A stretch of 64,000 nt of DNA from Methylocystis heyeri (GTDB lineage Bacteria; Pseudomonadota; Alphaproteobacteria; Rhizobiales; Beijerinckiaceae): contig NZ_CP046052.1 in the NCBI RefSeq assembly GCF_004802635.2, forward strand, positions 124,001 to 188,000. Direction: 5' to 3'. Positions 1,954 through 30,150 of the stretch are shown in pieces (the first letter of the stretch is position 1; each line of letters starts with the position of its first letter). The notes under the pieces are model-generated. The model was given only the letters and a program-made list of their open reading frames with translations. It did no database searches and was not told the DNA's origin. Both the position numbers and the translations under genes were made by a program.

Positions 1954-2001
1954 CGGGTCCTTCCTGTGCGACAGACGCCGTCCGGCGTTAAAACGAAAGC
2001 C

Positions 2002-2042
2002 TAGAGCGCGTTCATGTTTCCATGAAACATGAACGCGCTCTA
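2002..2042. repeat. Perfect extragenic palindrome, TAGAGC...GCTCTA family
   Basis: A 19-base arm starting TAGAGCGCGTTC is repeated exactly in reverse complement around a 3-base loop. The last three bases are the stop codon of the HMA-domain gene on the minus strand. Related palindromes occur at 12068-12106, 12120-12170 and 12951-12988. It could act as a terminator-like or mRNA-stabilising hairpin between the HMA gene and the ATPase, or be a mobile-type extragenic repeat. No T-run follows it. Confidence 0.85.
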
Positions 2043-3062: not shown

Positions 3063-3460
3063 CAGGCCTTGCGCTCCGAGGTCTCAGAACGGCCGCTCTC
3101 GGCCTCAACCTCGGCGACGATATCGCCGACATGCTCTTGCGCTTCGGCGACGAATTCGCGCGTCTTCTGCGACGCCTTGTAAACGCCGCGCACGGTCGAG
3201 CGGAAGATCGGAGCCAGCGCGGAGCTCAGGCGCGGGAAATATTTCGGCGCCGCCACCGCCGCGACGCCGAGCGCTACGCCCGGCAGCAGAGCGGCTTCCA
3301 TCACAACGACGCCAACTCCCACCACGCCGATGGTGGCGATCGTCGCGAGAGTGGTGGAGTCGATAGCCGCCAGATCCTCTTCGTCGTGTTCGGCGACGTC
3401 GGCGTCGTGCTCCTCGGCGGAATGGCGCCGATCATCGTGACTGTGCGTGTCATATGCCAT
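3062..3460 (-). CDS. DUF5132-type small membrane protein
   Basis: About 132 residues. The N-terminus is rich in His, Asp and Glu (AYDTHSHDDRRHSAEEHDAD), followed by a glycine/valine-rich hydrophobic hairpin, then a basic/acidic tail (YKASQKTREFVAEAQEH...). This is the layout of DUF5132 proteins; the family call is from memory of the pattern. The start at 3460 is preferred because GAAAGAGA precedes it; another ATG five codons upstream lacks a ribosome site. It overlaps the start of the HMA-domain gene by one base. The acidic His-rich N-terminus could bind cations. Function unknown. Confidence 0.7.
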   Translation of the reverse strand: MAYDTHSHDDRRHSAEEHDADVAEHDEEDLAAIDSTTLATIATIGVVGVGVVVMEAALLPGVALGVAAVAAPKYFPRLSSALAPIFRSTVRGVYKASQKTREFVAEAQEHVGDIVAEVEAESGRSETSERKA

Positions 3461-3561
3461 GTGAGTCTCTTTCATATTGCGCCGTCGAGGCGGTTGTTCC
3501 GAGTTCGCCGCAACGGCGGCAAGCGCGGCGCCTGGGCTTGCCTGCGACCGCAAAAGCAAGC

Positions 3562-4488
3562 TCAGTAAATGCGAGGCACATATATTTCTTCCGGGATGGC
3601 CTCGCGAATATAGTCGGGGTTGTGCACCCGCGGCGGCAGTTCGACCGGGGGCCTCTCGATCTCCTGATAGGGAAACTGGCTCAGCAGGTGGCTGATGCAG
3701 TTGAGGCGCGCACGCTTCTTATCGTCGGCTTCGACCACCCACCACGGCGCCTCGGGGATATGCGTGCGCTCCAGCATCGCCTCTTTGGCCTTCGTATAAG
3801 CCTCCCAGCGGATGCGCGACTGAAGATCCATGGGGCTGAGCTTCCATTGCTTCAACGGATCGTGGATGCGCATCTGGAAGCGGAAATGCTGTTCTTCGTC
3901 GGAGATCGAAAACCAGTATTTGATCAGGGTGACGCCGGAGCGCACGATCATGCGCTCGAACTCCGGCACGCTGCGGAAGAATTCCTCGACCTCGGCCTCG
4001 GAACAAAAACCCATGACCCGCTCGACGCCGGCGCGGTTGTACCAGGAGCGGTCGAACAGGACGAGTTCGCCGGCGGCCGGCAGATGCGGCGTATAGCGCT
4101 GGAAATACCACTGGGTCTTCTCGCGCTCGCTGGGCGCGGGCAGCGCGACGACGCGGCAGACGCGAGGATTGAGCCGCTGCGTCACTCGCTTGATGACGCC
4201 GCCCTTGCCGGCGGAATCGCGACCCTCGAAAATGACGACGGCTTTTTTCTTATTGGTTGCGATCCAGTCCTGCAGCTTCACCAATTCGCGCTGCAGCCGG
4301 AACAGCTCCTTGAAATAGAGGCTGCGATTGAGGCTCTCGGTCTCCGGATGGTCGGAGGCGCGATCCAGCAGGGCGGCGAGGCGCTGGTCGTCGATTTCCT
4401 CTTCCAGCTCTTCGTCGAAACTGTCGAGCATATCCGCGCGAATGCGCTCGGCAGTCGCGGCTCCCGATACGTGATCGTCCGAGGCCAT
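3562..4488 (-). CDS. ppk2: Polyphosphate kinase 2 (class I PPK2)
   Basis: 308 residues from the ATG at 4488. PPK2 transfers phosphate between polyphosphate and nucleoside diphosphates in the cytoplasm. The P-loop GRDSAGKGG (89-97) and the Walker B/lid signature DRSWYNR (146-152) are intact, and the single-domain length of about 300 residues fits class I enzymes. A TTG nine codons upstream is open in frame, but the ATG is preferred. The gene ends 101 bases before the DUF5132-type gene on the same strand and may head that operon. Such a link between polyphosphate and a metal pump is an inference from position. Confidence 0.92.
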   Translation of the reverse strand: MASDDHVSGAATAERIRADMLDSFDEELEEEIDDQRLAALLDRASDHPETESLNRSLYFKELFRLQRELVKLQDWIATNKKKAVVIFEGRDSAGKGGVIKRVTQRLNPRVCRVVALPAPSEREKTQWYFQRYTPHLPAAGELVLFDRSWYNRAGVERVMGFCSEAEVEEFFRSVPEFERMIVRSGVTLIKYWFSISDEEQHFRFQMRIHDPLKQWKLSPMDLQSRIRWEAYTKAKEAMLERTHIPEAPWWVVEADDKKRARLNCISHLLSQFPYQEIERPPVELPPRVHNPDYIREAIPEEIYVPRIY

Positions 4489-15008: not shown

Positions 15009-16190
15009 TTACTCCCTCAGCGCCAGCGAGGCGGAGGCGTCCTCCCAGGGAAGGCCCAGCTCCGGGCGGCCGAAATGCCCGTAAACGGCGAGGGGGCGAA
15101 AGAGACCGGCGTTCGCGAGCGCCGGATGGGTTCGCAGCTTAAAGCGCCGCTCGATCGCCGCCGGCCGGAAATCGTAATGGCGTTGCAGACGGGCGGAAAG
15201 TTCTGCGTCCGGCAGGCGGCCGGTCCCGAAGGTCTCGACCGATACGCTGAGCGGCGCCGACTGGCCGATCGCATAGCCGAGGTGAACCTCGCATTTTTCG
15301 GCGAGGCCGGCGGCGACGAGGTTCTTGGCGGCGTGGCGGGCGGCGTAGGCCCCGATGCGGTCGATCCTGGAAGGGTCCTTGCCGGAGAGGGCGGCTCCGC
15401 TGTGGCGCGCGATTTCTCCATAGGTGTCGATGCCGTTCTTGCGCCCGGTGAGACCGGCGTGGCGCGCCGGCCCGTCGATGACGTAAGGGGCTCCGGCGTT
15501 GACGCTGATGTAAAATTCCGTCTTTGCGTCGGGGCGTATCTCGCCCTCTGCGAGCGTGTCCAAAGCGAGGCTTTGCAGCCGATCCTCGAATTCGCGGGTT
15601 CGCTCATCGGGCGAGACCGCCGCAGTGATCGCGACGCCGTGGATGCGGACAGGGCGGCCGCCGCGATATTCCACCGAAACCTGGGTCTTAGCGTCGGGCG
15701 AGAGGCCGGAAAGGCCGCTTTGCCGGGCGTTGTCGAGTTCGCGCGCAAGACGATGGGCGAGGCTGATGGGGAGCGGCATCAGCTCGGGCGTGTCGCGACA
15801 GGCGTAGCCGAAGACATTGGCCTGATCCCTGGCCGCGCAGCGCTGGGCCCATTCCTCGTCGCCAGCCGCCATCGGCGGTTGCCGCATCGTCAAGGGAAGC
15901 TCCATGAAGCTCGTCAGGATCGAGCAGCGGCGCGCATCGAAACGTCCGTCGCTATATCCGGTGTCGGCGATCACCTGCCGCGCGACCGAGGGCAGGTCCA
16001 GATCGGCTTCCGCGGCATAGCGGGCGGCGAGAAAGATCACTCCCGCCGCCACGGCGCATTCGACGATGGCGTAGGCGCCGGAATCCTCTCGCAGAAAAGC
16101 GTCGATCGCCGCGTCGCTGATCTGGTCGCAGAGCTTGTCGGGATGGCCGGCCGTCACCGACTCCGAAGTGAAGATCATGTCAGCCGTCAT
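15009..16190 (-). CDS. metK: Divergent S-adenosylmethionine synthetase
   Basis: 393 residues. The enzyme joins methionine and ATP to make S-adenosylmethionine. Recognisable motifs: GHPDKLCDQISDA near 15-27, DQANVFGYA in place of the usual GDQGLMFGYA, PDAKTQVSVEY, HAGLTGRKNGIDTYG, and SGKDPSRIDRIGAYAARHAAKN. The N-terminal domain is clearly unlike housekeeping MetK (AIVECAVAAGVIFLAARYAAEA replaces the usual CE.. segment), so this is probably a second, divergent copy. Its ATG overlaps the stop of the upstream P-type ATPase gene by four bases (ATGA), so translation of the two is coupled, an unusual pairing for metK. Confidence 0.85.
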   Translation of the reverse strand: MTADMIFTSESVTAGHPDKLCDQISDAAIDAFLREDSGAYAIVECAVAAGVIFLAARYAAEADLDLPSVARQVIADTGYSDGRFDARRCSILTSFMELPLTMRQPPMAAGDEEWAQRCAARDQANVFGYACRDTPELMPLPISLAHRLARELDNARQSGLSGLSPDAKTQVSVEYRGGRPVRIHGVAITAAVSPDERTREFEDRLQSLALDTLAEGEIRPDAKTEFYISVNAGAPYVIDGPARHAGLTGRKNGIDTYGEIARHSGAALSGKDPSRIDRIGAYAARHAAKNLVAAGLAEKCEVHLGYAIGQSAPLSVSVETFGTGRLPDAELSARLQRHYDFRPAAIERRFKLRTHPALANAGLFRPLAVYGHFGRPELGLPWEDASASLALRE

Positions 16191-19100
16191 GAGGGTTTCC
16201 CGAGAGAGAGCCTTCGCGCCGCCGAAGCCGATCGAATGTGCACGGCGTAATCGAAGATGCTGTTGGCCAGCCCCCCGCCGAGCACGATCCCCGCTATCGT
16301 CAGAATATCGCGGCCTCCGAGCGGCGCCAGATTGAGCGCCCGGCGGGTCGCCGGGGAAAGCTGGGCGGCGACCTGGGCGACGGCCGACAGCAGCAAGGCG
16401 CCGTTCAGCTTGTGGTTCTGCGAATGAACCAGCTTGCCGTAGAGCCCCGGGGCCTCGGAGCGGCAACGGATCGCGTGCAGCAGCTGCCCGTAGGTTATGC
16501 CATGAAAAGTGATCGTGCTCGCTCGCGGCAGGTTTCTCGTCCCGCCGGCGAGAGCGTAAGCCGCGAGAGTGGTCGATCCGATCATCACGCCTTCGCGGAT
16601 CAGATGGCGGAAATCGCCCATCGACAGGATCGGCGCCCGCGCGTCGTGCGGGGGCTGGTCCATCACCGAACTCTCCGGTTCTTCCAGTCCCAGCGCCAGC
16701 GCCGGCAGCGGCTCTCCCGCAATATTCAGCCACAGGAGCTGCGTCGAGGTCATGGCGACGCCCCCGTCGATGAGCGCCGCGCCCAGCATGGCGAGGGTTT
16801 CCGAAACGGAGGTGGAGATCAGATAGCGCAAGACCTTGCGGATATTGGCGTAGGTGGCGCGGCCGAGTCTCACCGCCTCGATCACGCCGTTGAGATCGTT
16901 GCTGGCCAGCACCATGTCGGCGACCTCGCGAGCGACGTCCGTTCCATCCCCTCCCATAGCTATGCTGATGTGGGCGGCGCGCAGAGCCGGCCCGTCGTTG
17001 ACGCCGTCGCCGGTCATTCCCACGACGCGTCCCCCCGTCTGCAGCGCCTTCACGATATTGAGCTTGTCGACGGGGCTCACCCTCGCGAAAACCTGAGCCT
17101 GGCCGGCTAGGGCGGCGAGCGTGTCGGCGGAGAGGTCGGTGATCTGGCCGGCTTCCAGAACCCTGAGCTCGCCGCCGTTGGCGAGATCGAGCTGCCTCGC
17201 GATCGCTCTTGCGGTCGCGCTTTGGTCCCCGGTGATCATGACGCAGCGCACGCCTGCGCGCGCGAGTCGCCGCAGCGCCGGCTGCACGCTCGGCCGGATC
17301 GGATTGACCAGCCCTATGAGTCCCAGCCACTCGAGGTCGCATTCGTCCCGCGGGTCGGCGTCTTTTTCGCATAGGGCGAGGCCGAGAACCCGCAGCGCCT
17401 GGCCCGCCATCCGCTCATTGGCCCTGAGGATATTCGCGCGCGAGGCTTCGTCGAGCGGCTGGACGCCTTCGGCCGTGTGCTGCGCGCTGCAAAGCGCCAG
17501 GACTTCGCTGGGCTCCCCCTTAACGCACAGCAGGCGCCGGCCTTCTTCAACCGAATGGAGAGTGGACATGCGCTTGCGGCCCTCGGACCTCGGCGCGTTT
17601 TCGAGGACGGGCGCCGAGAAGCGCAGCGAGACCGCGTCGACGCCAAAAGCGAGGGCGGCTTCGATCAGGGCGGTCTCGGTCGCGGTCCCTTCGATCAGGG
17701 GACCGTCCGGCCCTGGGCGCACTGAAGATTCGTTGCAGAGGACCGCGACCTCGAACAGGCGCCGCGCTACGGCGGCGGTGGGGCCGTCCGCCTCCCTGTC
17801 GCCGTGAAGCAGCCGGTCGCCTTCGAGCCGCAGCAGGAGGCCTGCCGTGTGGATCGCAGCCGCGGCCATGCGGTTTTCCGTCAGGGTTCCGGTCTTGTCC
17901 AGGCCGATCACTTCGACCGCGCCGAGCGTCTCCACGGCGTCGAGCCTGCGCACGAGAACGTCGCGTTTGCGCATGTTCTGGACGCCGAGGGCGAGGGTGG
18001 TCGTCGCGACCGCGGGCAAGCCCTCGGGGATGGCCGCCACGATGAGCGAAATGGCGTTGCGCAGCATCGCCACCAGACCATGCCGATGATAGACGCCGAC
18101 GCCGAAGACGACGGCGCAGATCAGGCCGTTCAGCAGGATAAGCTCGCGCTCGACGTCGTCGAGCTGGCGCTGCATCGGCGTCTCGGGAGGGCGGACGGCG
18201 TTCAGGAGGCTTTGAACCCGGCCGAGTTCGGTGGAGGAGCCGGTTTCAGTGACGAGCGCGAGCGCGCAGCCGCCGGTCACCGCGGTTCCCCGGAACAGCA
18301 TGTTGCAGCGCTCTGGCAGCAGCGTATCGGCAGGAAGCACGAATTGCGCGTTCTTCTGGACGGGCAGAGCTTCGCCGGTGAGCGCGGACTCGTTGACCGA
18401 AAGCTCGCTGCTTTCGATCAATCGGGCGTCCGCCGGGATCAGCATGCCCCGCTCCACCAGCAGGATATCGCCACGAACCAGTTCCGCGGGATGGATATGG
18501 CGGCGCACGCCTTCGCGCAGCACGGGAACCGGCTCCGGAGCATAATCCGACAGACCGAGGATGGTTCGCTCGGCCTGATGCTCGGTCGCTGTGGCAATGC
18601 CGCCGTTCAGCACGACGACCGCCGCGATGACCAGAGCGTCGACGACGCCGCCGGTCGTCAGGGAAAGCACGGCGGAGCCGGCGAGGAGAAGCACCGGCAG
18701 GCTGACCAGCTGCTGGGCGAAAATCGCCACGGCGGAGCGCGGCTTGGCGCGGGGCAATTCATTGGGTCCGAAGGCCAGGAGGCGTTCGGCGGCCTGCTCG
18801 TCGGTCATGCCGCGGCTCAGGCCCGCGCCGAGCAGCTCCGCTGCGCCTCCCGCCGTCATGGCGTGCCAATGGCGCTCGGCGGCATGTTGGTCGCCGCTGG
18901 CGGCGGAAGACAGCGCCAGCGCCGCGCTTTCGCCCGCGAGCGGCGCCGGCTCTTCCCCCGCGGCTGCTGCGTCGATGATCCGGGCCAGCGCTGCGGGGCC
19001 GGCGGGGGGATCGAATTCGACCAGCACCGAGCCGGTTGCGGCGTCGGCGCGCGTCGTTCTCACGCCGCGGCAGTTGCGCAAAGCCGCATCGACCGCGCGC

Positions 19101-19252
19101 GCGAGCCTTTTGCGGCCGATCAGGCCCGGATGTTTGAACCGGATGCGGCCCGGCGCCGCATCATGGCTGATCCTCGCCGAAACCCGCGGCGAGGCGGGCT
19201 TCCGATCCACCGCGGCTTGAAAGCTCGTCGTCGCGTTCACGGGCATGTTCAT
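16187..19252 (-). CDS. P2-type cation ATPase with N-terminal cysteine-less HMA-like domain
   Basis: 1021 residues from the ATG at 19252; a TTG 19 codons upstream (19309) is also open. Residues about 30-80 form an HMA_2-like domain (PGRIRFKHPGL ... TGSVLVEFD) without CxxC. A Ca2+-ATPase-like pump follows: the N-terminal cation ATPase segment with AERLLAFGPNELP, TGEALP, the transmembrane motif PEGLP (409-413), DKTGTLTENR (D452), GDGVNDGP, and a C-terminal membrane half. PEGLP and the overall form place it in the P2 (Ca2+/Mn2+) branch, not the heavy-metal branch. An 18-codon leader ORF precedes it, and metK overlaps its stop. The ion is not determinable here. Confidence 0.88.
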   Translation of the reverse strand: MNMPVNATTSFQAAVDRKPASPRVSARISHDAAPGRIRFKHPGLIGRKRLARAVDAALRNCRGVRTTRADAATGSVLVEFDPPAGPAALARIIDAAAAGEEPAPLAGESAALALSSAASGDQHAAERHWHAMTAGGAAELLGAGLSRGMTDEQAAERLLAFGPNELPRAKPRSAVAIFAQQLVSLPVLLLAGSAVLSLTTGGVVDALVIAAVVVLNGGIATATEHQAERTILGLSDYAPEPVPVLREGVRRHIHPAELVRGDILLVERGMLIPADARLIESSELSVNESALTGEALPVQKNAQFVLPADTLLPERCNMLFRGTAVTGGCALALVTETGSSTELGRVQSLLNAVRPPETPMQRQLDDVERELILLNGLICAVVFGVGVYHRHGLVAMLRNAISLIVAAIPEGLPAVATTTLALGVQNMRKRDVLVRRLDAVETLGAVEVIGLDKTGTLTENRMAAAAIHTAGLLLRLEGDRLLHGDREADGPTAAVARRLFEVAVLCNESSVRPGPDGPLIEGTATETALIEAALAFGVDAVSLRFSAPVLENAPRSEGRKRMSTLHSVEEGRRLLCVKGEPSEVLALCSAQHTAEGVQPLDEASRANILRANERMAGQALRVLGLALCEKDADPRDECDLEWLGLIGLVNPIRPSVQPALRRLARAGVRCVMITGDQSATARAIARQLDLANGGELRVLEAGQITDLSADTLAALAGQAQVFARVSPVDKLNIVKALQTGGRVVGMTGDGVNDGPALRAAHISIAMGGDGTDVAREVADMVLASNDLNGVIEAVRLGRATYANIRKVLRYLISTSVSETLAMLGAALIDGGVAMTSTQLLWLNIAGEPLPALALGLEEPESSVMDQPPHDARAPILSMGDFRHLIREGVMIGSTTLAAYALAGGTRNLPRASTITFHGITYGQLLHAIRCRSEAPGLYGKLVHSQNHKLNGALLLSAVAQVAAQLSPATRRALNLAPLGGRDILTIAGIVLGGGLANSIFDYAVHIRSASAARRLSLGKPS

Positions 19253-19262
19253 CTCGGGCGGC

Positions 19263-19319
19263 TCATTCTCGCTCGAGAGGAACGTTCCGTTCCGGCTCGC
19301 GCGCTTCAATTTCCGTCAT
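19263..19319 (-). CDS. Possible 18-residue leader ORF before the P2-type ATPase
   Basis: ATG with AAAGGAG about seven bases upstream, encoding MTEIEAREPERNVPLERE and then TGA. It ends 10 bases before the ATPase ATG at 19252 and is in a different frame. The ribosome site here is stronger than that of the pump gene, so translation may couple through the leader. It could instead be spacer. Confidence 0.35.
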   Translation of the reverse strand: MTEIEAREPERNVPLERE

Positions 19320-19568: not shown

Positions 19569-22500
19569 TCACAGCCCCCATCTGCGAACAAACCAGACCT
19601 TCACGAAATGCGTCATGACCGCGTATGTCGCCAGCATGGCGGCGACCAGAGGCCAATAAAGCTGGGGCAGGGGCACAAATCCGAGGACCGAGCCGACCCA
19701 TGTGAAGGGGAGCGAGACGCCGACGACGCATATGATCAACGTCGTCGCGATCAGAGCATTGCTGGCGCGGCTTTCGAGAAACGGAATCCTCGCGGTCCGG
19801 ATGATGTGGATGATCAGGGTCTGGGTCAGCAGAGATTCCACGAACCAGCCGGTCTGGAACAGCGGGGCGTCGTTCCAGGCGTCGAACACGAACAGCATCA
19901 TGGCGTAGGTCGCGTAGTCGAATATCGAGCTGATCGGCCCGATGAAGACCATGAACTTGAAAATATTGCTGATGTCCCACTTGCGCGGGGTCGCGAGATA
20001 TTCCTCGTCCACCGTGTCGGTCGGAATCGCCGTCTGGGAGAAGTCGTAAAGAAGATTGTTGGTGAGCACCTGGATGGGCGCCATCGGCAGGAACGGCAGG
20101 AACAGGCTGGCGCCGAGCACGCTGAACATGTTTCCGAAATTCGAGCTCGCGCCCATTTTGATATATTTGGTGATGTTTGCGAAGATCCTGCGCCCCTCGA
20201 TCACCCCTTCGTCGAGCACGAGCAGGTTTTTCTCGAGAAGAATGATATCGGCCGATTCCTTGGCGATATCGACCGCCGTATCGACGCTGATTCCGACATC
20301 CGCCGCCTTGAGGGCGGGGCCGTCGTTTATGCCGTCGCCCAGAAAGCCGACCACCCGCCCCTTCCGGTGCAGAGCTTCGATCACCCTGGATTTCTGCATG
20401 GGGGACAGTTTGGCGAAGACCACCGTGTCCACAGCGAAACCGGCCAGCGCCTCCTGGTCCATCTGGTCGATTTCATGCCCGAGCGCTATCCGGTCGACCT
20501 TCAGGCCGACGTCCTTGCAGATCTTGCGGGTGACGACCTCATTGTCGCCGGTCAGAATCTTCACCGCTACGCCCGCCCTGGCGAGATCGGCGATGGCCTG
20601 CGCCGCGCTTTCCTTGGGAGGATCGAGAAAAGCTATATAACCGAGCAAGGTAAGATCGCGCTCGTCCGCGACCGTGTAAACGGCCTGTCCCGCCGGCATC
20701 TCCTTATAGGCGACCGCAACCACCCGGAATCCGTCCTCATTGAGTTCGCAGGTCTCCCGTTTCGCGGTTTCGAGATGGGTGGGATCGAGGCGGCCGCACT
20801 CATTTTCCGTCTCATAGGTCGTCGATGCGGCGAATATCTCCTCGACCGCGCCTTTGCAGATCAGGAGATGCTTGCCGTCATCGCGCTGCACCACGACCGA
20901 GAGCCGCCTGCGCTGGAAATCGAACGGGATTTCGTCGATCTTGAAGAAGCGGCCGGCGAGGCGGGTCTCCTCGACTTCCGAGTGTTCAAGCACGGCCTTG
21001 TCGAGAAGGTTTTTGAGGCCGGATTGAAAATGGCTGTTGAGATAGGCGAATTCGAGCACCCGGTCGGAATCTTCGCCGTAGATGTCCAGATGATGTTTCA
21101 GAATGATGCGGTCCTGGGTCAGGGTGCCGGTCTTGTCGGTGCACAGCACGTCCATGGCGCCGAAATTCTGGATCGCGTTGAGGCGTTTGACGATCACCTT
21201 GTGGCTCGCCATGGCGATAGCGCCTTTCGCGAGATTCACCGTCACGATCATCGGCAGCATTTCGGGCGTGAGCCCGACAGCCACCGCCACGGCGAAGAGC
21301 AGCGCCTCCAGCCAGTCGTGCTTGGTGAACCCGTTGACCAGAAAGACGGCGGGCGCCATCACCAGCATGAATCTGATCATCAGCCAGGTGAATTTATCGA
21401 CGCCCAGATCAAAGGCGGTCGGAGCCCGACGCTCCGCGATCTCGTCCGCCAATCGACCAAAGAAAGTGTTTCGTCCCGTCCGCAGAATGACGCCGGTCCC
21501 ATATCCCGAGACCACATTGGCCCCCATGAAGCAGATGTTCGGCAGATCGAAAGGATCGCCGTGAACCTGCTCGCAGGCGTGAGCGTATTTTTCCGCGGGC
21601 ATCGCCTCGCCGGTGAGGGCCGACTGGTTGATGAAAAGATCCTTGGCCTCGAGCAGTCGCAGATCGGCGGGGATGATGTCCCCCGCAGAAAGCTGAACGA
21701 TGTCGCCGGGCGCGAGCTGCTCGATGGGGATTTCGGCGAAGGGGTCGTCGGGATCGCCTGGAGTGCGCCTGACGCTCGCGGTGGTGTGGACCATCGCCCG
21801 CAGCCGCGCCGCGGCCTCATTGGAGCGATGCTCCTGCACGAAGGCGGTCGCGATCGCGAGAACCACCATCGAGGAAATGACGATCGCGGCGCGAACGTCG
21901 CCCAGAAAATAGGAAACGATCGCCAGGGTCAGCAACAAGGCGTTGAGCGGGTTGCGGGCTCGGCCCCACAGCTCTTGCAGGATCGTCGCCTTGGCTTCGC
22001 GGGCGACGATGTTGGGCCCGCAGGCGATCAGCCGCTCCTCCGCCTCCGATTGCGAAAGGCCCTGGAGCCGCGACCCGGCTTTCCCGCAGGCCTCGTTCGG
22101 GGCCAATCGGCTGATATCCGCCAGTTCGCCGCTCTGAGGCGCGGAGCTCTCAGCGCCGGAACTCCGCACGCCGCGCCGCTTTTGTAGGAGGTGGCCGCCG
22201 GCGACGGCCCCCAATCCGATCGATGCGAAAGCGACCAGCGATGCGAGAAGCCGCATGCTGATCGTCGGGCGAGGCGGCGGCGAAGAGATTTCCGGAGTCG
22301 AAGCCGGGTCAGCCTCCCCGGCAGGCTTTTCCTCTGCAGGCTTTTGGGCCGCCGCGAGCCTGCCGAGTTCGGAAAGTCCCTCACGCGCCGCCTGGAGCGT
22401 CGGATCGAGTTTCAGCGCCGTTTCGAAGTCTTGTTTGGCTCGGGCGAAATCCTGTGCGCTGCTGTAGACCGCGGCCCGCTGCAAATATGGCGCGGCCGCG

Positions 22501-22901
22501 CCCGGCTCGAGGGCGATGGCGTGGTCGCAATCGGCGGCCGCTGCGGCGAAGTCTCCTTTTGAGAGGCGGATGGAAGCCCGCTCCCGCCAGGCGGTGGCCG
22601 ATCCGGGGTCGAGCCGCAACGCCTCATCGAGGAGGGCCAGCGCGCCTCCGTCATCCCCTTTGGACCGAAGCTGGAGCGCTTTCTTCGCCAAGGCGGCGGC
22701 CCGGCGTTGCGCTTTCTCGATCGCGCCCGTCGAGGGTCCTTTGCAGGGGGGCGCCCGGTTGTCGCCGCATGGAGCCGGACGTTGTTCCGCCTTTGCGGGA
22801 GCCGCCGCGGCGACGGCCAGGCAAGCGAGGGCGACCGAGGCGACGAGGGCTAAATCCAGGATGCGTTTCCGCAGAGCAGGAACGGTTGCGATCTGCGTCA
22901 T
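19569..22901 (-). CDS. MgtA-like P3-type Mg2+ ATPase fused to a periplasmic TPR domain
   Basis: 1110 residues in one uninterrupted frame. Residues 1-39 look like a signal peptide ending AKAEQ. Residues 65-180 hold three TPR units (e.g. GGALALLDEALRLDP, ARAKQDFETALKLDP). A Pro/Glu linker and one membrane helix (about 216-240) lead into a full MgtA-type ATPase: TGEAMP (430-435), TPEMLP (545-550), CTDKTGTLT (D589), GDGINDGP, and the C-terminal six-helix half. MgtA/MgtB pumps import Mg2+; they are normally about 900 residues without the first 250. The topology fits: periplasmic TPR, then one helix returning to the cytoplasm. AGGA precedes the ATG. The TPR fusion suggests an envelope-side partner or sensor. 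Confidence 0.9.
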   Translation of the reverse strand: MTQIATVPALRKRILDLALVASVALACLAVAAAAPAKAEQRPAPCGDNRAPPCKGPSTGAIEKAQRRAAALAKKALQLRSKGDDGGALALLDEALRLDPGSATAWRERASIRLSKGDFAAAAADCDHAIALEPGAAAPYLQRAAVYSSAQDFARAKQDFETALKLDPTLQAAREGLSELGRLAAAQKPAEEKPAGEADPASTPEISSPPPRPTISMRLLASLVAFASIGLGAVAGGHLLQKRRGVRSSGAESSAPQSGELADISRLAPNEACGKAGSRLQGLSQSEAEERLIACGPNIVAREAKATILQELWGRARNPLNALLLTLAIVSYFLGDVRAAIVISSMVVLAIATAFVQEHRSNEAAARLRAMVHTTASVRRTPGDPDDPFAEIPIEQLAPGDIVQLSAGDIIPADLRLLEAKDLFINQSALTGEAMPAEKYAHACEQVHGDPFDLPNICFMGANVVSGYGTGVILRTGRNTFFGRLADEIAERRAPTAFDLGVDKFTWLMIRFMLVMAPAVFLVNGFTKHDWLEALLFAVAVAVGLTPEMLPMIVTVNLAKGAIAMASHKVIVKRLNAIQNFGAMDVLCTDKTGTLTQDRIILKHHLDIYGEDSDRVLEFAYLNSHFQSGLKNLLDKAVLEHSEVEETRLAGRFFKIDEIPFDFQRRRLSVVVQRDDGKHLLICKGAVEEIFAASTTYETENECGRLDPTHLETAKRETCELNEDGFRVVAVAYKEMPAGQAVYTVADERDLTLLGYIAFLDPPKESAAQAIADLARAGVAVKILTGDNEVVTRKICKDVGLKVDRIALGHEIDQMDQEALAGFAVDTVVFAKLSPMQKSRVIEALHRKGRVVGFLGDGINDGPALKAADVGISVDTAVDIAKESADIILLEKNLLVLDEGVIEGRRIFANITKYIKMGASSNFGNMFSVLGASLFLPFLPMAPIQVLTNNLLYDFSQTAIPTDTVDEEYLATPRKWDISNIFKFMVFIGPISSIFDYATYAMMLFVFDAWNDAPLFQTGWFVESLLTQTLIIHIIRTARIPFLESRASNALIATTLIICVVGVSLPFTWVGSVLGFVPLPQLYWPLVAAMLATYAVMTHFVKVWFVRRWGL

Positions 22902-23801: not shown

Positions 23802-24839
23802 CTATTCCGAATCTGCGCCGACGCCTCCGATCTCTATCCGCCAAACGCCTTCGGGAAGCTCCCGAATAGCGATTTTCTCTCCCAGAAAGGCGTGAATGAC
23901 CTCGATATTGGTGAGCATGTGGCGCGATGGCGCGCATGTGACGAAAACACCGCCCGGGCCGAGCGCGAGGGGCAGCAGAAGCTGGTCGCCGAGATGGACG
24001 TCGACCGGATGCTCGCCCCGAAGGTAATGATCGACCTGCGCGGCGCATTCCTCGGCGACCGTTTCGGAACTCGCGCCGAGGCGGCCGAAAGCGACGAAGA
24101 CCTCGGTCACATGCTCATAGCCGAGCGTGACGATCAGAATGTTGCCCGGCCCTTTCGCGCGACGTTCCGTCATCGGCGCGACGCGATCCTCGGACCAGTT
24201 CAGCAGCGCGCACAGCCGCTCCGCTTCCCGCGTGGCGATCGTATAGGCGAGGTTGGAGACGACGGCCTCGCCCTTGTGTTCGATCAAGGCGCCGCGCGTT
24301 GTCAGGAGCAGGGGGCGCGTCGGAGACGTCGCGCCGATCTCGATCACGATCTCTCCGCCGCCCGCCGGATAATATCCGGGGCGCGTCAATGCCGCCGCGA
24401 CGCTGTAACCCATGCGCCGCAGCAGCGGCAGAAAGGCGCGATCGAGAAACTCGAAAGGCGGAGCCCCGACATTATTGGTCCCGCCCTGTATCGTCACGCG
24501 GGACGGGGCGCCGGCCAGCGCAAGGGGAAGAAGCACGGTCTGCAGGACGAGGCTCGTGGAGCCGGCCGAGCCGATGTTGAAGACATAATCTCCCGCCCGC
24601 ACGGGGCCGGGCGCGAAAACCAGCGACGTCGAGCCGACCTCGGCGCCATCGATCCGCGCGCCGCAGATTTCCGCTGCAGCCTTGACCGCCGTAAGATGCT
24701 GGCGCATCAGACCCGGCCTCTCGCGGCCCGCGCGAATCCTTTCGATAGCGAACGGTTGTCCCGTCGCCATCGAAAGACTCAAGGCCGAGCGCAGAATTTG
24801 GCCGCCGCCCTCGCCGAAGGCGCCGTCGATCGTTAACAT
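23802..24839 (-). CDS. rtcA: RNA 3'-terminal phosphate cyclase
   Basis: 345 residues, the usual RtcA length. The enzyme converts RNA 3'-phosphate ends into 2',3'-cyclic phosphate through an adenylylated His. The start IDGAFGEGGGQILRSALSLS, the motif IGSAGSTSLVLQTVLLPL and the catalytic segment CAPSRHMLTNIEV (H307) are all conserved. It is the last gene of the rsr - Y RNAs - rtcB - rtcA unit, 20 bases after rtcB. It would be expressed only when RtcR is active. Confidence 0.96.
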   Translation of the reverse strand: MLTIDGAFGEGGGQILRSALSLSMATGQPFAIERIRAGRERPGLMRQHLTAVKAAAEICGARIDGAEVGSTSLVFAPGPVRAGDYVFNIGSAGSTSLVLQTVLLPLALAGAPSRVTIQGGTNNVGAPPFEFLDRAFLPLLRRMGYSVAAALTRPGYYPAGGGEIVIEIGATSPTRPLLLTTRGALIEHKGEAVVSNLAYTIATREAERLCALLNWSEDRVAPMTERRAKGPGNILIVTLGYEHVTEVFVAFGRLGASSETVAEECAAQVDHYLRGEHPVDVHLGDQLLLPLALGPGGVFVTCAPSRHMLTNIEVIHAFLGEKIAIRELPEGVWRIEIGGVGADSE

Positions 24840-24859: not shown

Positions 24860-26116
24860 CTAACCTTTGACGCAAACGATCTGCCGCAGCGTATGAACGA
24901 TCTCGACCAGATCCGCCTGGGCGGCCATCACGGCGTCGATGTCCTTATAGGCTGCGGGCGTCTCGTCGATGACGTCGGCGTCCTTGCGGCATTCGACCCC
25001 GCTGGTCGCAGCGGCGTGGTCTTCGATCGTGAAGCGGCGCTTCGCCTCGGCGCGAGACATGACGCGGCCGGCGCCATGCGAACAGGAGCAGAAGCTTTCG
25101 GGGTCGCCCTTGCCGCGCACGATGAAGGATTTCGCGCCCATCGAGCCGGGAATGATACCCATCACGCCCTCGGCCGCGCACACCGCGCCCTTGCGGGTCA
25201 CGAGCACGTTCTCGCCGAAATGATGTTCGCGCGCGACATAATTATGATGGCAATTGACCGCTTCGAGATGCGCTTCGAACGGAATCGCCATCGCCTCGCG
25301 CGCCGCCGCTATGGCGTGTTTCATCATCACCTCGCGGTTGGCGAGCGCGAAGCTCTGCGCCCATTGCACGGCATCGACATAATCGTCGAATCCTTCAGTG
25401 CCCTCGGGGAGATAGGCGAGGTCGCGATCCGGCAGGTTGAGGTACCAGCGTCGCATCTCCTCCTTGGCGCGTTCGATGAAATAGGACCCGATCGCATTGC
25501 CGACGCCGCGCGAGCCCGAATGCAGCATGAACCAGACGCGATCCGCTTCGTCGAGGCAGACCTCGATGAAGTGATTGCCCGTGCCCAGAGTGCCGAGATG
25601 GTTCGCCGTGTTGGATTTCTCGAGCTTGGGATGCTTTTCGACGATACGCCTGAAGCCGGCGTCGAGCGCAGACCATGCCTCCGCCGTCGCTTCCGGCAAT
25701 TCCGCCCAGGAGCCCTTGTCGCGCATGTCCCGGCCCACCGTGCGCCCGTGCGGCACGGCCTTCTCCAAGGCCGCGCGCAGGAGCGCGAGATTGTCGGGAA
25801 GATCCGAAGCGGTGAGGGAGGTGCGCACGGCCATCATGCCGCAGCCCAGATCGACGCCGACCGCCGCCGGAATGATGGCGCCTTTCGTCGGGATCACCGA
25901 GCCGATGGTCGAGCCCTTGCCGTAATGCACGTCGGGCATCACGGCGAGCCACTTGAAGATGAAGGGCATTCGCGCCGTGTTGAGCAGCTGCTCTTTCGAC
26001 GAGTCGTCCACCGGAACGCCGCGCGTCCACATTTTGACGGGCGCGGCGTTCCGGGCCTTGGCCGCGTCGAACGTTTCGGCGAGAAAATCGTAAGAGCGAT
26101 CGGCGGCGGTTTGCAT
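24860..26116 (-). CDS. rtcB: RNA ligase RtcB
   Basis: 418 residues from the ATG at 26116, chosen because AAAAGGA precedes it; an in-frame ATG nine codons upstream has no such site. RtcB is the GTP- and Mn2+-dependent ligase joining 2',3'-cyclic phosphate or 3'-phosphate RNA to 5'-OH ends. Metal ligands are visible: C92 (GVDLGCGMM), H182 (GTGNHF), H199 (LHSGSRG) and the NCHH pair at 290-291. The guanylylated His is H347 (CSCSHGAGR). The gene follows four Y-RNA-like elements and precedes rtcA. Confidence 0.96.
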   Translation of the reverse strand: MQTAADRSYDFLAETFDAAKARNAAPVKMWTRGVPVDDSSKEQLLNTARMPFIFKWLAVMPDVHYGKGSTIGSVIPTKGAIIPAAVGVDLGCGMMAVRTSLTASDLPDNLALLRAALEKAVPHGRTVGRDMRDKGSWAELPEATAEAWSALDAGFRRIVEKHPKLEKSNTANHLGTLGTGNHFIEVCLDEADRVWFMLHSGSRGVGNAIGSYFIERAKEEMRRWYLNLPDRDLAYLPEGTEGFDDYVDAVQWAQSFALANREVMMKHAIAAAREAMAIPFEAHLEAVNCHHNYVAREHHFGENVLVTRKGAVCAAEGVMGIIPGSMGAKSFIVRGKGDPESFCSCSHGAGRVMSRAEAKRRFTIEDHAAATSGVECRKDADVIDETPAAYKDIDAVMAAQADLVEIVHTLRQIVCVKG

Positions 26117-26191
26117 TTCATTATCCTTTTCTGAAAAGCCCATATTATCGAGGACCTAAGCCGTTCGATTCCATTTCGGCGCGCAGGCGAA

Positions 26192-26325
26192 GCTGCGGCG
26201 ACAAGAGGCGCGCGACATGACGACATGAGCTTCGCCCATCTTGCGATGCGCGGGCGGGATCGAACCGCCAGCCTCCCCTTTTGAGGGCGCTCTACCAATG
26301 TAGTCCCGCGGGCATTCGCCGCAGC
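26192..26325 (-). ncRNA. Y-RNA-like element D with circularly permuted tRNA-like module
   Basis: A 10-bp terminal stem pairs 26325-26316 (GCTGCGGCGA) with 26201-26192 (TCGCCGCAGC). It is followed by ATGCC on the 5' side and CCTCTTG on the 3' side, the pattern of the Ro-binding stem of Y RNAs. Inside is a tRNA mimic in permuted order. It runs D-loop TTGGTA and GAGC (26292-26289), an anticodon-like hairpin (CCCTCAAAAGGGGAGG), then a perfect T-arm GGCGG-TTCGATC-CCGCC (26269-26253). Next is an acceptor-like stem capped by GCAA (26244-26241), then GCTC (26230-26227), which pairs with GAGC. The chain is thus opened in the D-loop and closed at the acceptor end. It is the last of four elements and lies 75 bases before rtcB. 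Confidence 0.75.
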
Positions 26326-26340
26326 GTTTTTTCGGCATGG

Positions 26341-26459
26341 AAGCCATGGCGACGAGGGGTGGCGAGAGGCGGGCTCCCGATAACGATGAGTCGGGGGCGG
26401 TTTCCAGCCGCCGGCGCCCCTGGCGGAGGATGTACTCTCGCCGGCATTCGCCATGGCTT
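26341..26459 (-). ncRNA. Y-RNA-like element C (no tRNA-like module)
   Basis: A perfect 12-bp stem joins AAGCCATGGCGA (26459-26448) and TCGCCATGGCTT (26352-26341). Opposed ATGCC and ACCCCTCG form the bulged Ro-site position. A second perfect 8-bp stem follows: GGCGAGAG (26442-26435) with CTCTCGCC (26368-26361). The apical region starts with the shared TACAT and contains GGGGCG/CGCCCC and CCCGA/TCGGG pairings, but no T-arm or D-arm. It shares the framework of elements A, B and D with a different head. Confidence 0.7.
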
Positions 26460-26528
26460 TCCACGTTTTTTTAGACGAGGCGAGGATCCCGCCGCGTCCG
26501 ATCTCCTGTTCTGGTCGGCGGCAAGGGC

Positions 26529-26690
26529 CGCGACGACAAGGTTTGAACGAAACACCGCTCTTCGAGCGCGGCTTGCGCCTTGCTCTCCGAACGCCTGCTC
26601 TACCCCTGAGCTACGGACTTGCGTCCGGCGGGATTCGAACCCGCGACCTGGTCATTAAAAGTGATGTAGTTTCGCTCCGCATTCGTCGCG
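26529..26690 (-). ncRNA. Y-RNA-like element B (YrlA-type) with permuted tRNA-like module
   Basis: Terminal stem CGCGACGA (26690-26683) with TCGTCGCG (26536-26529), then ATGCG opposite AACCTTG, then a 9-bp stem GAGCGAAAC with GTTTCGTTC (26677-26669, 26553-26545). The head contains, in permuted order, a T-arm GCGGG-TTCGAAT-CCCGC (26644-26628), an acceptor-like 5-bp stem CGGAC-GCAA-GTCCG closed by a GNRA tetraloop (26627-26614), TA, and a D-arm GCTC-AGGGGTA-GAGC (26611-26597). Two further hairpins (GGC-GCAA-GCC and CGCTC-GAA-GAGCG) follow. Bacterial Y RNAs of the YrlA class are known tRNA mimics, and this order fits that class. A true tRNA is excluded because the halves are swapped. Confidence 0.78.
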
Positions 26691-26710
26691 CCTTACTCAG
26701 TATCGAAAAG

Positions 26711-26793
26711 CCGTGGCGACAAGAGGCGCGAGGCCCGATGGTCGAGAGGCGTTTGCATCACAAGCAATGTACTCCAGACCGCATTCGCCATGA
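26711..26793 (-). ncRNA. Y-RNA-like element A (short head)
   Basis: It starts 11 bases after the rsr stop codon. TGGCGA (26790-26785) pairs with TCGCCA (26719-26714), next to ATGCG on the 5' side and CCTCTTG on the 3' side, the same motif as in elements B and D. The head begins with TACAT and carries a small hairpin TTGC-TTGTGAT-GCAA with a 7-base loop like an anticodon arm, but no T-arm. A TTTT run follows the stem at 26709-26706. Total about 83 bases, similar to short Y RNAs. Confidence 0.7.
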
Positions 26794-26803
26794 CCTTTTT
26801 CCT

Positions 26804-28363
26804 TTAACCGAGATCGATCTTCTCGATCTCTCCGACCCAATGGCCGGCGTCCAGCTCATCCTTTGCGAAGGCCGAGATCATCTCGAACACGCTGTCGGAG
26901 AAGCCGCCGATATTCAGCACATCCGCACGCTCCGCCGCCTGGGTCGTCCCATAAGGCTGGATGTCGATGCAGACCAGCTTGGCGTCGGGGTTGCGACGCT
27001 TCAGCTTCTCCCACATCTCCATCGTCGCCGTGCCGCGACCGCCGTAGCGCGCGTCGATCCAGGACTCATTGTCCGAGATGAAGACAACGAGGTCGACCCT
27101 GGCGCGCTCCGCGACCAGCTTCGCCAGCGGCGCCGAGCAATTGGTTCCGCCGCCGCCGATGGAAGCAAGGCGCTGCGCATTCGTCATCACGCTGTCGCGC
27201 GGGTTCAGATACACGTCCACCACGTCGTTTTCGAAGGGCAATACGCGCGTCTCCGGGTTGGCCCGCAGAAACGCCGCCGTGACGAGGCCGGCCACGTCGA
27301 TGCAGCGCACCCCCGAGGTCGCGCCCTTGCGGTAGCCCGTCACCGGCGAGGACATCGAGCCCGAGACGTCGGGGCAGACCACAACGCGTCCGTCGATGCG
27401 CGGAACATTCGAGATCGAGATCTCCATCGCGTCCTGCAGCGCCTCCCGCACCATGCGCGGAACCTTATCGTCGGCGGCGGCGTAGGCCGCCATCAGCTGA
27501 TAAGGAAACACGCGCGCCCGCTTGATCTCGGCGGGATCGCGCAGCCGCGCCGCCGCCTTGCGCGGGAACCACGACACATCGAACGCCCCGTGGCGCGCGA
27601 AAGTGTTGAGGTTCATGCGCAGCATCTGCCATCCTCCTTTCGAACCTATCGCAGCCCAATGCTCTCCGGTCAGCGGGAGCGCCGTCAGCATCTGGAACGG
27701 CACATCCGGCGGCGTGCGCGAAGGATTGCGCTTGAACGCCTCGAAATCCTGGGCGATCTGCGGCAGCGCCGAAACATCGTAGGGCCTGCCGATGAGATAG
27801 CCATAGAGAGCCTCGCGTTCCCTGGTTCCGGGCTTGGGGTGGACCATCTTGATCACATCGGCGAGCGAAGGGTCTTGCCCCACCGAAGCGCGCATGATCT
27901 CGATATCCGAAGCCCGCTCGAGCCAGTTGGCGACGAAACGCTTCGGGCGCGAGCCCATAGACTTGCGGCCCACGGCGCCGGAGCGCATGATCTGCACGAA
28001 GCTCCTCAGCATCTTGCCGTTGTCGATCACGCGGGGAAACGCTTTCGAGAAGTCGTGTGTCTCCATGGTGGAGAGCAGCGCGACGAGCAGCGCCGGCATG
28101 TCCTTCATATAGCCGCGCCGACGCGCATAGATCGCCGTCTTGGCGATGAAGGCGGGATCGACGTCGAGCGCCGTCAGAAGCACGTCGTCGAGCTGGTCTC
28201 GAGCGTCGGCGTAAAAGGTCCGGTTCAACGAGCCGGTAGCCGCGAGCTGCGCGAGCTTATGGCGCGGCGTGAGCGCATAGGCGGGTCCGCCCGCGTGGTT
28301 TTGCGCGTCCGCCCTGGGAAGCAGCATTCCGGCGATGGACGCGAACAGGGATTTGTTCGCCAT
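26804..28363 (-). CDS. rsr: Ro60/Rsr ortholog (TROVE domain and vWA)
   Basis: 519 residues. Residues 1-320 form the helical-repeat TROVE ring that binds misfolded RNAs and Y RNAs. Residues 325-519 are a von Willebrand A domain with an intact metal-ion site (PDVSGSMSS at 331-339, GGGGTNC, ISDNES). AAGGA precedes the ATG by eight bases. It is the first gene after a sigma-54-type promoter and is followed directly by four Y-RNA-like elements, the natural ligands of Rsr. The rsr - Y RNA - rtcBA arrangement with divergent rtcR is known from enterobacteria; here it has more RNA elements. Confidence 0.95.
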   Translation of the reverse strand: MANKSLFASIAGMLLPRADAQNHAGGPAYALTPRHKLAQLAATGSLNRTFYADARDQLDDVLLTALDVDPAFIAKTAIYARRRGYMKDMPALLVALLSTMETHDFSKAFPRVIDNGKMLRSFVQIMRSGAVGRKSMGSRPKRFVANWLERASDIEIMRASVGQDPSLADVIKMVHPKPGTREREALYGYLIGRPYDVSALPQIAQDFEAFKRNPSRTPPDVPFQMLTALPLTGEHWAAIGSKGGWQMLRMNLNTFARHGAFDVSWFPRKAAARLRDPAEIKRARVFPYQLMAAYAAADDKVPRMVREALQDAMEISISNVPRIDGRVVVCPDVSGSMSSPVTGYRKGATSGVRCIDVAGLVTAAFLRANPETRVLPFENDVVDVYLNPRDSVMTNAQRLASIGGGGTNCSAPLAKLVAERARVDLVVFISDNESWIDARYGGRGTATMEMWEKLKRRNPDAKLVCIDIQPYGTTQAAERADVLNIGGFSDSVFEMISAFAKDELDAGHWVGEIEKIDLG

Positions 28364-28397: not shown

Positions 28398-28415
28398 TTG
28401 CGACCAGCGTGCCAG
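28398..28415 (-). promoter_or_regulatory. Sigma-54 (-24/-12) promoter of the rsr-rtcBA operon
   Basis: CTGGCACG-CTGG-TCGCAA: GG at 28413-28412 and GC at 28401-28400, with the obligatory 10 bases between. It differs from the consensus TGGCACG-N4-TTGC at one base. It lies 37 bases upstream of the rsr ATG and faces rsr, and the divergent gene encodes RtcR, a sigma-54 activator. Confidence 0.8.
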
Positions 28416-28554: not shown

Positions 28555-30150
28555 ATGGCCAGGCGGCGCGTCGTCATCGGTTTTCTCGGCACGACCATGG
28601 ACGCCGGCAAGGACAATCGCTGGGAGCGCTGGCGCCCGACGGTCGCGCTCTGCCAGCACGAGGATTTTCTGGTCGACCGGCTGGAGCTCATTCACGACGC
28701 CCACAGCGAGGCTCTCGCCCTACGGGTCAAAGGCGATATCGGGCAGGTCTCGCCCGAGACGCAGGTGCGCCGCCATGTGATGAATCTGAAGGACCCTTGG
28801 GATTTCCAGGAAGTTTATGGCGCCATGCGGGATTTCGCCGACGCCTTTCCTTTCGACGCCGAGGCCGAGGATTATCTCGTCAACATCACGACCGGAACCC
28901 ATGTCGCGCAGATCTGCTGGTTCCTGTTGGTGGAGGCTCATTATGTGCCGGCCAGGATACTGCAGCTCACGCCGCCGCGGCGCTGGCGCGAGGGCGGGCC
29001 CGGCAAATATGACGTGATCGACCTCGATCTCGCGCGCTACGATCGCATCGCGACGCGTTTTGCAGTCGAAAAGGCCGAGGCGACATCCTTCCTGAAATCC
29101 GGCATCGCGACCCGCAACGAGGCGTTCAACCGCATGATAGAGCGCATCGAGCAGGTGGCGGCGCGCTCCAGGGCGTCCCTGCTGCTGACAGGGCCGACCG
29201 GCGCCGGCAAGTCGCAGCTCGCGCAGCGCATCTATGAATTGAAAAAATCCCGCCATCGTCTCAAGGGGCCGTTTGTTGAGGTCAATTGCGCGACGCTGCG
29301 CGGCGACAGCGCCATGTCGGCGCTCTTTGGCCACGCCAAAGGCGCCTTCACCGGGGCGTTGCAGGACCGCCCCGGACTCTTGCGCAAAGCCGACGGCGGC
29401 ATTCTCTTCCTCGACGAGATCGGCGAACTCGGGCCCGACGAACAGGCGATGATCCTGCGCGCGATCGAGGAAAAGCGCTTCTTGCCGCTGGGCTCCGACA
29501 AGGAAGCTTCGAGCGACTTCCAGCTCATCGCAGGCACAAACCGGGACCTTTCCCAGGATGTCGCCAAGGGCAAGTTTCGAGAGGATCTGCTCGCGCGCCT
29601 CAATCTTTGGACCTTCGAGCTGCCGGCTCTCAGGGACAGGCGTGAGGATATCGAGCCCAATCTGGATTTCGAGCTGGCGCGTTTCTCCGAGCGGGAAGGG
29701 GCGCAGGGGACATTCAACCGCGAGGCCCGGGAGCGCTATCTCGCCTTCGCGCGCTCTGACCGCGCCAAATGGCGGGCCAATTTCCGCGATCTCGGCGCCT
29801 CGGTGACGCGTATGGCGACGCTCGCTCCCGCGGGCCGCATCACCGAGGAAATCGTGACCGAGGAGATTGCGCGGCTCGAGGCTTCATGGGCGCGCGGCGC
29901 GAAAGACGAGCCCGAGGCGGTGTTGCGGGAGTTCTTCAGCGAAGAGGCGCTCGCAGAAATGGACCTTTTCGACCGCGTTCAGCTCGCGGCGGTGTTGCGC
30001 GTGTGCCGCGTCCATTCCAGCCTCAGCGCCGCGGGGCGGGCGCTGTTCTCCGCCTCGCGGGCCCAAAAGGCGAGCGTCAATGACGCGGACCGGCTGCGCA
30101 AATATCTCGCCCGTTTCGAGCTCGACTGGAAAACCGTCGCCGGAAAATAG
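28555..30150 (+). CDS. rtcR: Sigma-54-dependent activator RtcR (CARF-AAA)
   Basis: 531 residues. The N-terminal about 180 residues form the CARF-like ligand domain (VVIGFLGTTMDAGK ... NITTGTHVAQICW), which in RtcR senses RNA ends and derepresses the ATPase. The AAA+ domain has Walker A GPTGAGKS (213-220), the sigma-54 contact loop GAFTGA (263-268) and Walker B FLDEIG (285-290). A C-terminal DNA-binding helix-turn-helix region ends the protein. AGGATAG precedes the ATG. It is divergent from rsr and should activate the sigma-54 promoter at 28398-28415. CARF here is not a sign of CRISPR; no array or cas gene was seen. Confidence 0.96.
   Translation: MARRRVVIGFLGTTMDAGKDNRWERWRPTVALCQHEDFLVDRLELIHDAHSEALALRVKGDIGQVSPETQVRRHVMNLKDPWDFQEVYGAMRDFADAFPFDAEAEDYLVNITTGTHVAQICWFLLVEAHYVPARILQLTPPRRWREGGPGKYDVIDLDLARYDRIATRFAVEKAEATSFLKSGIATRNEAFNRMIERIEQVAARSRASLLLTGPTGAGKSQLAQRIYELKKSRHRLKGPFVEVNCATLRGDSAMSALFGHAKGAFTGALQDRPGLLRKADGGILFLDEIGELGPDEQAMILRAIEEKRFLPLGSDKEASSDFQLIAGTNRDLSQDVAKGKFREDLLARLNLWTFELPALRDRREDIEPNLDFELARFSEREGAQGTFNREARERYLAFARSDRAKWRANFRDLGASVTRMATLAPAGRITEEIVTEEIARLEASWARGAKDEPEAVLREFFSEEALAEMDLFDRVQLAAVLRVCRVHSSLSAAGRALFSASRAQKASVNDADRLRKYLARFELDWKTVAGK

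Follow-up and report, generated by a model that had tools for sequence, protein, structure and literature searches.

Y RNAs with tRNA-like domains are already known, and in algal and archaeal permuted tRNA genes the 3' half is encoded before the 5' half, with processing into working tRNAs. A close counterpart of the locus presented here is the Salmonella rsr-yrlBA-rtcBA operon, in which, according to a published account, two named Y RNAs accompany rsr, rtcB, rtcA and a divergent rtcR, and which is induced by cleaved or damaged tRNAs through RtcR (PMC7790460). In Deinococcus radiodurans, as related in the same account and in a review, a Y RNA tethers the Rsr ring to PNPase (PMC7790460, PMC8394870). 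The portion of the review that deals with YrlA-type RNAs describes D, T and acceptor arms, with no anticodon arm mentioned there (PMC8394870). Here, we describe a locus of Methylocystis heyeri with the same gene set, lying in a 64-kb stretch of DNA (hereafter the window), in which the intergenic stretch between rsr and rtcB carries four Y-RNA-like elements (E1 to E4; 26190-26798, minus strand) instead of the two of Salmonella, and with other head types. We consider it likely, from sequence comparison, that these are Rsr-bound adaptor Y RNAs with several conserved docking heads, belonging to an RtcR-controlled tRNA-damage operon.

The rsr gene (26804-28363, minus strand) encodes a Ro60-like ring protein with TROVE and Ro60 vWA domains (Pfam vWA_Ro60 E 5.5e-17), the TROVE match lying barely above its Pfam cut-off (23.1 vs 23 bits). 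The same strand holds the gene for the RNA ligase RtcB (24860-26143, exact start codon uncertain; Pfam RtcB E 5.4e-131) and that for the RNA 3'-phosphate cyclase RtcA (23802-24839; Pfam RTC E 2e-74), while rtcR, encoding a sigma-54 activator, is divergent from rsr (28555-30150, plus strand; Pfam RtcR E 4.4e-81, Sigma54_activat E 2.1e-51). Genes for RtcR, RtcB and RtcA together with a divergent rtcR mark an RNA repair operon of the RtcR type. Upstream of rsr, a sigma-54-type promoter-like site, CTGGCACGCTGGTCGCA, lies at 28399-28415 (minus strand), which places the array downstream of such a site; the pattern is loose, and in the window it has this sole match on the minus strand and two others on the plus strand, at 17399 and 23537. 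Downstream of rtcA there are two long open reading frames (16187-19309 and 19569-22901, minus strand) that by eye resemble cation-transporting P-type ATPases (DKTGT motif); the N-terminal part of the second looks repeat-like.

The four elements occupy 26706-26798 (E1), 26527-26692 (E2), 26339-26461 (E3) and 26190-26327 (E4), all on the minus strand, and the end of rsr at 26804 adjoins the start of E1 at 26798. The interval first proposed, 26192-26793, was thus correct to within a few bases, and the perfect outer stems of 6-12 bp reported with it recur in the sequence, with 6, 8, 12 and 10 bp in E1 to E4, respectively, those of E1 being followed by a single A-C mismatch. The outer stem ends in CGA/TCG and continues with ATGC on the 5' side and CTTG on the 3' side (CTCG in E3), beyond which comes an inner stem; we take this shared terminal-stem motif to be the Rsr-binding site. 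The claim of a common motif held on the 5' side, where CGAATGC is present in 4/4 elements, and needed correction on the 3' side, where CTTGTCG is found in three of them and E3 has CTCGTCG; TACAT does open the head in all four. Overall, Y-RNA-type elements with differing heads, two of them tRNA-like, do adjoin rsr, as had been described from the letters alone.

The chance level was assessed with a stem-plus-motif score applied to both strands of the window and to 20 window shuffles (1.28 Mb), after an earlier, looser motif finder, which gave 496 matches in 1.28 Mb of shuffles, had been replaced. E1 to E4 are the top four minus-strand matches of the 64 kb, with scores that in descending order are 25 (25.0, E1), 24, 24 and 22, the next best scoring 21; the plus strand has one unrelated match scoring 22, and the shuffled sequence three matches at 22 and none higher. 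E2 alone is not beyond chance by this score, but four matches inside 610 bases are. This second motif finder overlooked the class B elements of Betaproteobacteria (see below for the classes), which a covariance model recovered.

Compared with YrlA (Rfam RF02553), E2 shares the type of locus, the stem motif and the T arm, acceptor, D arm order of its tRNA parts, and differs in having a complete anticodon arm. The YrlA model scores E2 at 50.2 bits (E 2.9e-10), E3 at 27.2 (E 0.0014) and E4 at 19.8 (E 0.18), all under the gathering score of 69, and has no match to E1. By its anatomy E2 is YrlA-like although it falls below the cut-off. The YrlA order is absent from E4, which has another permutation that the model does not recognise, and from E3 and E1, and these three are not classed as YrlA. 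YrlB (RF02565; a model of 78 positions), the second enteric Y RNA, is likewise Y RNA-like and lies directly after rsr in enteric contigs; it has no match in the window.

That two of the heads are tRNA-like had been seen in the preliminary description, which missed that they are permuted, and in two distinct ways. In E2, the representative of what we call class A, the parts follow the order T arm (26628-26644, GCGGG TTCGAAT CCCGC), acceptor stem (26614-26627) and D arm (26597-26611, GCTC AGGGGTA GAGC), all on the minus strand, and the acceptor stem is closed by a GCAA tetraloop (26619-26622) that fuses the tRNA ends; rotation at this acceptor loop gives a complete tRNA. On its 5' strand the anticodon stem is split by the Ro stem, and an extra hairpin arm follows the D arm. 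The anticodon arm is completed across this interruption: GG after the D arm (26594-26595, minus strand; tRNA positions 27-28) and TCA after TACA pair with TGACC around the 7-nt loop CTTTTAA, the 3' part of the arm, TCA CTTTTAA TGACC, occupying 26650-26664 (minus strand; tRNA positions 29-43). When un-permuted without the extra arm, E2 is called tRNA-Lys(ttt) by ARAGORN, and with the extra arm kept there is no call. Its orthologue in Methylosinus trichosporium OB3b, with GG+TCG, CTTATGA and CGACC, is called tRNA-Ile(tat), and the two differ by a compensatory change from A31-U39 to G31-C39. An alignment of E2 with 15 relatives (A6) displays the T arm, acceptor hairpin and D arm, with both-sided changes in 14/34 pairs. 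Among 86 class-A-like elements, 63 have a canonical anticodon geometry (the 23 left out include the enteric YrlA of L216), and the arm pairs at 5/5 bp in 36 of these 63; 500 permutations gave a mean of 17.2 and never more than 27, and sliding the strand gave at most 7. U33 is present in 53 of the 63 canonical heads (T background 21%), and the anticodons vary widely across class A elements.

E4, which represents class B, is a cloverleaf opened in the D-loop, where the Ro stem sits, and its parts run from the D stem 3' strand through an anticodon-position arm, variable region, T arm and acceptor hairpin to the D stem 5' strand. On the minus strand these are the G18-G19 equivalents with the D stem 3' strand (GGTAGAGC, 26289-26296), the anticodon-position arm (CCCTCAAAAGGGG, 26275-26287), the T arm (GGCGG TTCGATC CCGCC, 26253-26269), the acceptor hairpin (CGCGCATC-GCAA-GATGGGCG, 26233-26252) and the D stem 5' strand (GCTC, 26227-26230), the acceptor hairpin being placed by the class B parse and the D and T parts by alignment A1. 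The weak points of E4 are a G-G mismatch in the acceptor stem and the anticodon-position arm itself, a short and weak hairpin of 3 bp that lacks the 7-nt anticodon loop; in the parse the anticodon-position loop has 5 nt and the acceptor loop 4 nt. Across the class, 55 rows were available and 50 were parsed (L032:6428, L038:6406, L011, L012 and L013 were dropped, and the L076 row was mis-parsed), giving a 4-nt anticodon-position loop in 40/50 and a 4-nt acceptor loop in 36/50.

Covariation in the stems among relatives, on which the preliminary description had staked its reading beforehand, is present in the classes of both E4 and E3. For class B, A1 comprises 19 hand-picked elements with a structure from RNAalifold, in which 94.3% of cells are paired, 19/32 pairs have both-sided changes, and covariation reaches 0.442 vs 0.156 in shuffles (0/500) and at most 0.124 when slid. 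A second class B alignment took in 14 rows from Betaproteobacteria and Acidobacteria, found with the model but lying outside its seed; with the T and acceptor arm structure adjusted by hand after RNAalifold, it gave 94.2% paired, both-sided changes in 19/34 pairs and covariation of 0.346 vs 0.185 (0/500 shuffles). The column taken as G18 (G32) is invariant in 19/19 rows of A1 and so is the psi55 column, and class B therefore probably keeps the tRNA elbow. With E4 as part of its seed, model R1 scores E4 at 100.2 bits.

The covariance model built from A1 was also applied, with stricter filters, to 397 genomes from the order. At E 0.001, 231 of them gave at least one match, mostly weak, whereas 15 reached at least 85 bits, the next best being 59.5; G000 and G083 contain seeds of this model, and other genomes may too. 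An rsr coding sequence lies within about 1.5 kb of all 15 strong matches and in 27/30 of the fetched loci overall. Class B recurs in Alphaproteobacteria, Betaproteobacteria and Acidobacteria, and none of 12 class-B elements (at least 80 bits with the class-B model) in 14 loci is called by Rfam at gathering score. In one Blastocatellia locus (L076), 11 Rfam-called tRNA genes lie upstream of rsr (935-3825); a class B Y RNA (98.4 bits) is lodged among these genes, and a further two Y elements follow them. Additionally, two unverified contigs that bear phage record titles (Escherichia and Salmonella) but hold bacterial rsr and rtcB have a third Y element without annotation, which follows YrlB and YrlA as called by Rfam and precedes rtcB (L216:1078-1186 and L217:925-1033). 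It scores 42.3 bits with the class-B model and 31.7 with Rfam YrlA vs the cut-off of 69. The two contigs count as one case because their Y region is the same; none of 20,395 E. coli records matches this 401-base region.

How far the permuted heads resemble tRNAs was gauged with ARAGORN on 243 parsed elements, 178 of them with an acceptor hairpin after the T arm. Once un-permuted, 75 of these 178 heads are called tRNA (about 11 of class B and most others of class A, the list being read by eye), compared with 0/1780 shuffles and 0/178 heads in native order; the remaining 103, E4 included, are not called. ARAGORN finds no tRNA in the window, so the native-order cloverleaf that would define a tRNA gene is absent there. 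Judged by sequence and covariation, the heads of E2 and E4 are tRNAs in circular permutation, with a tetraloop joining their acceptor ends, and the stems, both permutations, the fused ends and the close link to rsr all stand on this footing. The half order is that of the algal and archaeal permuted tRNA genes; the window heads instead have fused acceptor ends, and their new ends form the Rsr-type stem. Mimicry of a particular isotype was considered for the window and rejected: un-permuted E2 and E4 are about as distant from the 47 tRNAs of their own genome as isotypes are mutually, with best scores of 33.0 and 25.5, respectively, beside a median of 32 for real tRNAs against their best other isotype.

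The head of E3 (class C) is a three-way junction and not tRNA-like, with the hairpins GGCGG CTGGAAA CCGCC and CCCGA CTCATCGTTA TCGGG. In alignment A2, which joins E3 with eight relatives, 98.9% of cells are paired, both-sided changes occur in 16/31 pairs, and covariation is 0.444 vs 0.182 in shuffles (0/500), while one of five measures for this class, that of further pair types, is no higher than in shuffles (256/500). The class C loop CTCA(T/C)CGTTA is kept in 7/9 rows. E1 has a terminal stem of 12 positions, including its one mismatch, an inner stem of 9 positions and a small hairpin head, TTGC/GCAA, with no tRNA features. The class-B model matches it at 24.9 bits (E 1.8e-6 in a search of 701 bases), and an orthologue lies in M. 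trichosporium OB3b (L215:5067-5154); the fold rests on these two sequences, too few for covariation (shuffle control 254/500). That E1 might be a decayed copy of class C was rejected, the best head identity of 53.5% falling inside the between-class range.

To see how common such arrays are, loci were gathered by a search with the Rsr protein, which yielded 80 loci from genome records and a few further relatives; the sample is biased, since these are the nearest relatives of the window's Rsr. In all, 85 loci were counted, the window included, leaving out L001, L005 and L008 (end of rsr not found), L007 (weak match) and L009 (the same place as L006), and 63 of the 85 have a complete region, defined as rsr and rtcB both found within 1.7 kb. 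The preliminary description held four elements to be exceptional, and they are not: at least four are present in 42/63 complete regions and at least three in 54/63, with a copy number ranging from 1 to 7. With taxonomic groups assigned by hand from record titles, the 28 alphaproteobacterial loci (window included) have two elements in one case, three in three, four in nine, five in eight and six in seven; the 25 betaproteobacterial loci have one in two cases, two in five, three in eight, four in six, five in three and six in one. Of five Verrucomicrobia, four have four elements and one has five; the four Acidobacteria have 2, 3, 4 and 7, and the single deltaproteobacterium locus has 4. Over the 85 loci there are 309 elements vs 13.7 expected from the opposite strand. 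The covariance model, counted from its list of matches, gives seven elements each in L024, L017 and L019, and Rhizobium etli (L218) has five. As Rfam YrlA at gathering score finds at most one element per locus (12 matches in 14 loci) where at least three are usual, many such RNAs are probably unannotated.

The closest Rsr relative found is that of M. trichosporium OB3b, encoded on plasmid pOB3b1 (L215), at 82.8% protein identity, and this plasmid carries rtcR, rsr, an RtcB gene and the same four elements in identical order. In all, rsr was found in 7/101 genomes, the window's own included, and in 0/20 same-genus genomes among those listed, 74 matchless genomes being unlisted; a close, operon-type RtcB (63%) was found in 1/38 congeners. 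Elsewhere in the window's own genome lie another two RtcB relatives (G000:C1:281772-283088 and G000:C1:998381-999412), with an identity of 39% for one, and of 40% and 35% in two pieces for the other. The rarity of rsr and of close RtcB in its own genus suggests a recent, horizontal acquisition of the rsr-rtcBA operon.

With regard to function, the four Y RNAs would probably be cut from an RtcR/sigma-54-driven rsr-rtcB-rtcA transcript, each with the common Rsr-type stem and a head of its own. Rsr would bind the stems, and while tRNAs are being damaged the different heads may dock different partners onto it, such as tRNA-binding or tRNA-modifying enzymes, nucleases or the ligase; each head would offer a tRNA-like surface, or another surface in E3, that holds partner enzymes on the ring. 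This docking step is plausible, and a Y RNA that links the Rsr ring to an effector has its analogue in the Deinococcus Rsr-PNPase system. Because their acceptor ends are fused by a tetraloop, the tRNA-like heads should be unchargeable. In class A (E2) the stem splits the anticodon stem and leaves the anticodon loop complete, whereas a stem in the D-loop and the usual anticodon tetraloop leave class B (E4) with both working ends sealed, so that mainly the tRNA elbow and body would be offered. Among 25 elements from 6 loci, head identity averages 60-73% for the same class across loci and 52% for different classes within a locus, although the ranges overlap (class A minimum 49.3%, between-class maximum 60.7%). 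We infer from this difference that the head classes predate the genera and have stayed separate; different jobs are thereby favoured over simple dosage, and different partners become plausible.

The principal competitor to adaptor docking is a decoy or sensor role, by which the class A anticodon loop would let anticodon nucleases bind or cut it, sparing or reporting on the real tRNAs, with effector tethering being secondary. The complete anticodon arm with its prevalent U33 fits this role, and so does an operon that responds to tRNA cleavage; the Salmonella account itself suggests that YrlA could competitively inhibit a nuclease, but also reports that Salmonella YrlA is not a nuclease substrate (PMC7790460). 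For the array as a whole the idea fails, since class B mostly has no 7-nt anticodon loop and class C is not tRNA-like, and we regard it as possible but doubtful. Dosage with drift, in which a single Y RNA does the work while its tandem companions are redundant and decaying, would accord with the variation in copy number between complete regions and with E1 and E4 being the weakest folds. However, class B and class C both persist in several genera and show compensatory changes, and OB3b has its four elements in the order seen in the window, so that we think this explanation unlikely.

A more modest role, in which the hairpins merely stabilise or process the rsr-rtcB mRNA and have none in trans, would suit elements that sit within a probable operon. 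The conserved Rsr-type motif and the intricate tRNA folds would be unnecessary for it, however, and the Y elements of L076 that lie upstream of rsr among tRNA genes are out of place; we give it very little weight. As for pseudo-tRNA remnants trapped between rsr and rtcB, the obvious T arm, D arm and acceptor elements invite this reading, as do the Rfam tRNA calls that span neighbouring Y RNAs in L015 and L218, yet ARAGORN calls no head in native order, both permutations of that order are reproducible, and the reading is already contradicted by covariation in the Rsr-type stem, leaving its probability close to nil.

Beyond the adaptor reading, we put forward tentatively, and with more doubt than belief, that the Y RNA set displays tRNA to Rsr in at least two topologies. 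Class A would present a live anticodon loop as nuclease bait or reporter, class B would be an overlooked second class sealed at both ends, the enteric contigs may hold a third Y RNA, and the array would form a panel of tRNA surfaces routing several tRNA enzymes onto Rsr. The anatomy of the two classes itself predicts that class A heads should be recognised, and perhaps cut, by anticodon nucleases and then resealed by RtcB, and that class B should bind only proteins reading the tRNA elbow or body. A single operon in which one fold is permuted in two ways also illustrates how a tRNA can be re-plumbed as an adaptor. No description of the D-loop-opened class, of a complete class A anticodon arm or of arrays of up to seven was found in the available parts of the literature searched, a set without primary Y RNA papers (PMC7790460, PMC8394870, PMC7765460, PMC9569102, PMC7824862, PMC4726728, PMC12282133).

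Some further observations concern individual loci. In L015 and L218, an Rfam tRNA call spans the boundary of two adjacent Y RNAs (L015:5929-6068, 34.6 bits; L218:5189-5314, 32.5 bits), a trap for annotation. The record of L015 is titled Mycobacterium sp. KBS0706, a name that looks wrong, its Y-element array being arranged much like that of Inquilinus limosus (L014). Finally, the only head among those compared that clearly resembles one isotype is in a Mesorhizobium locus (L024:6471-6606), where a head opened in the D-loop matches tRNA-Leu(UAG) at 66/82 positions and has a long variable arm, with similar heads in L017, L027, L030, L033 and L035.
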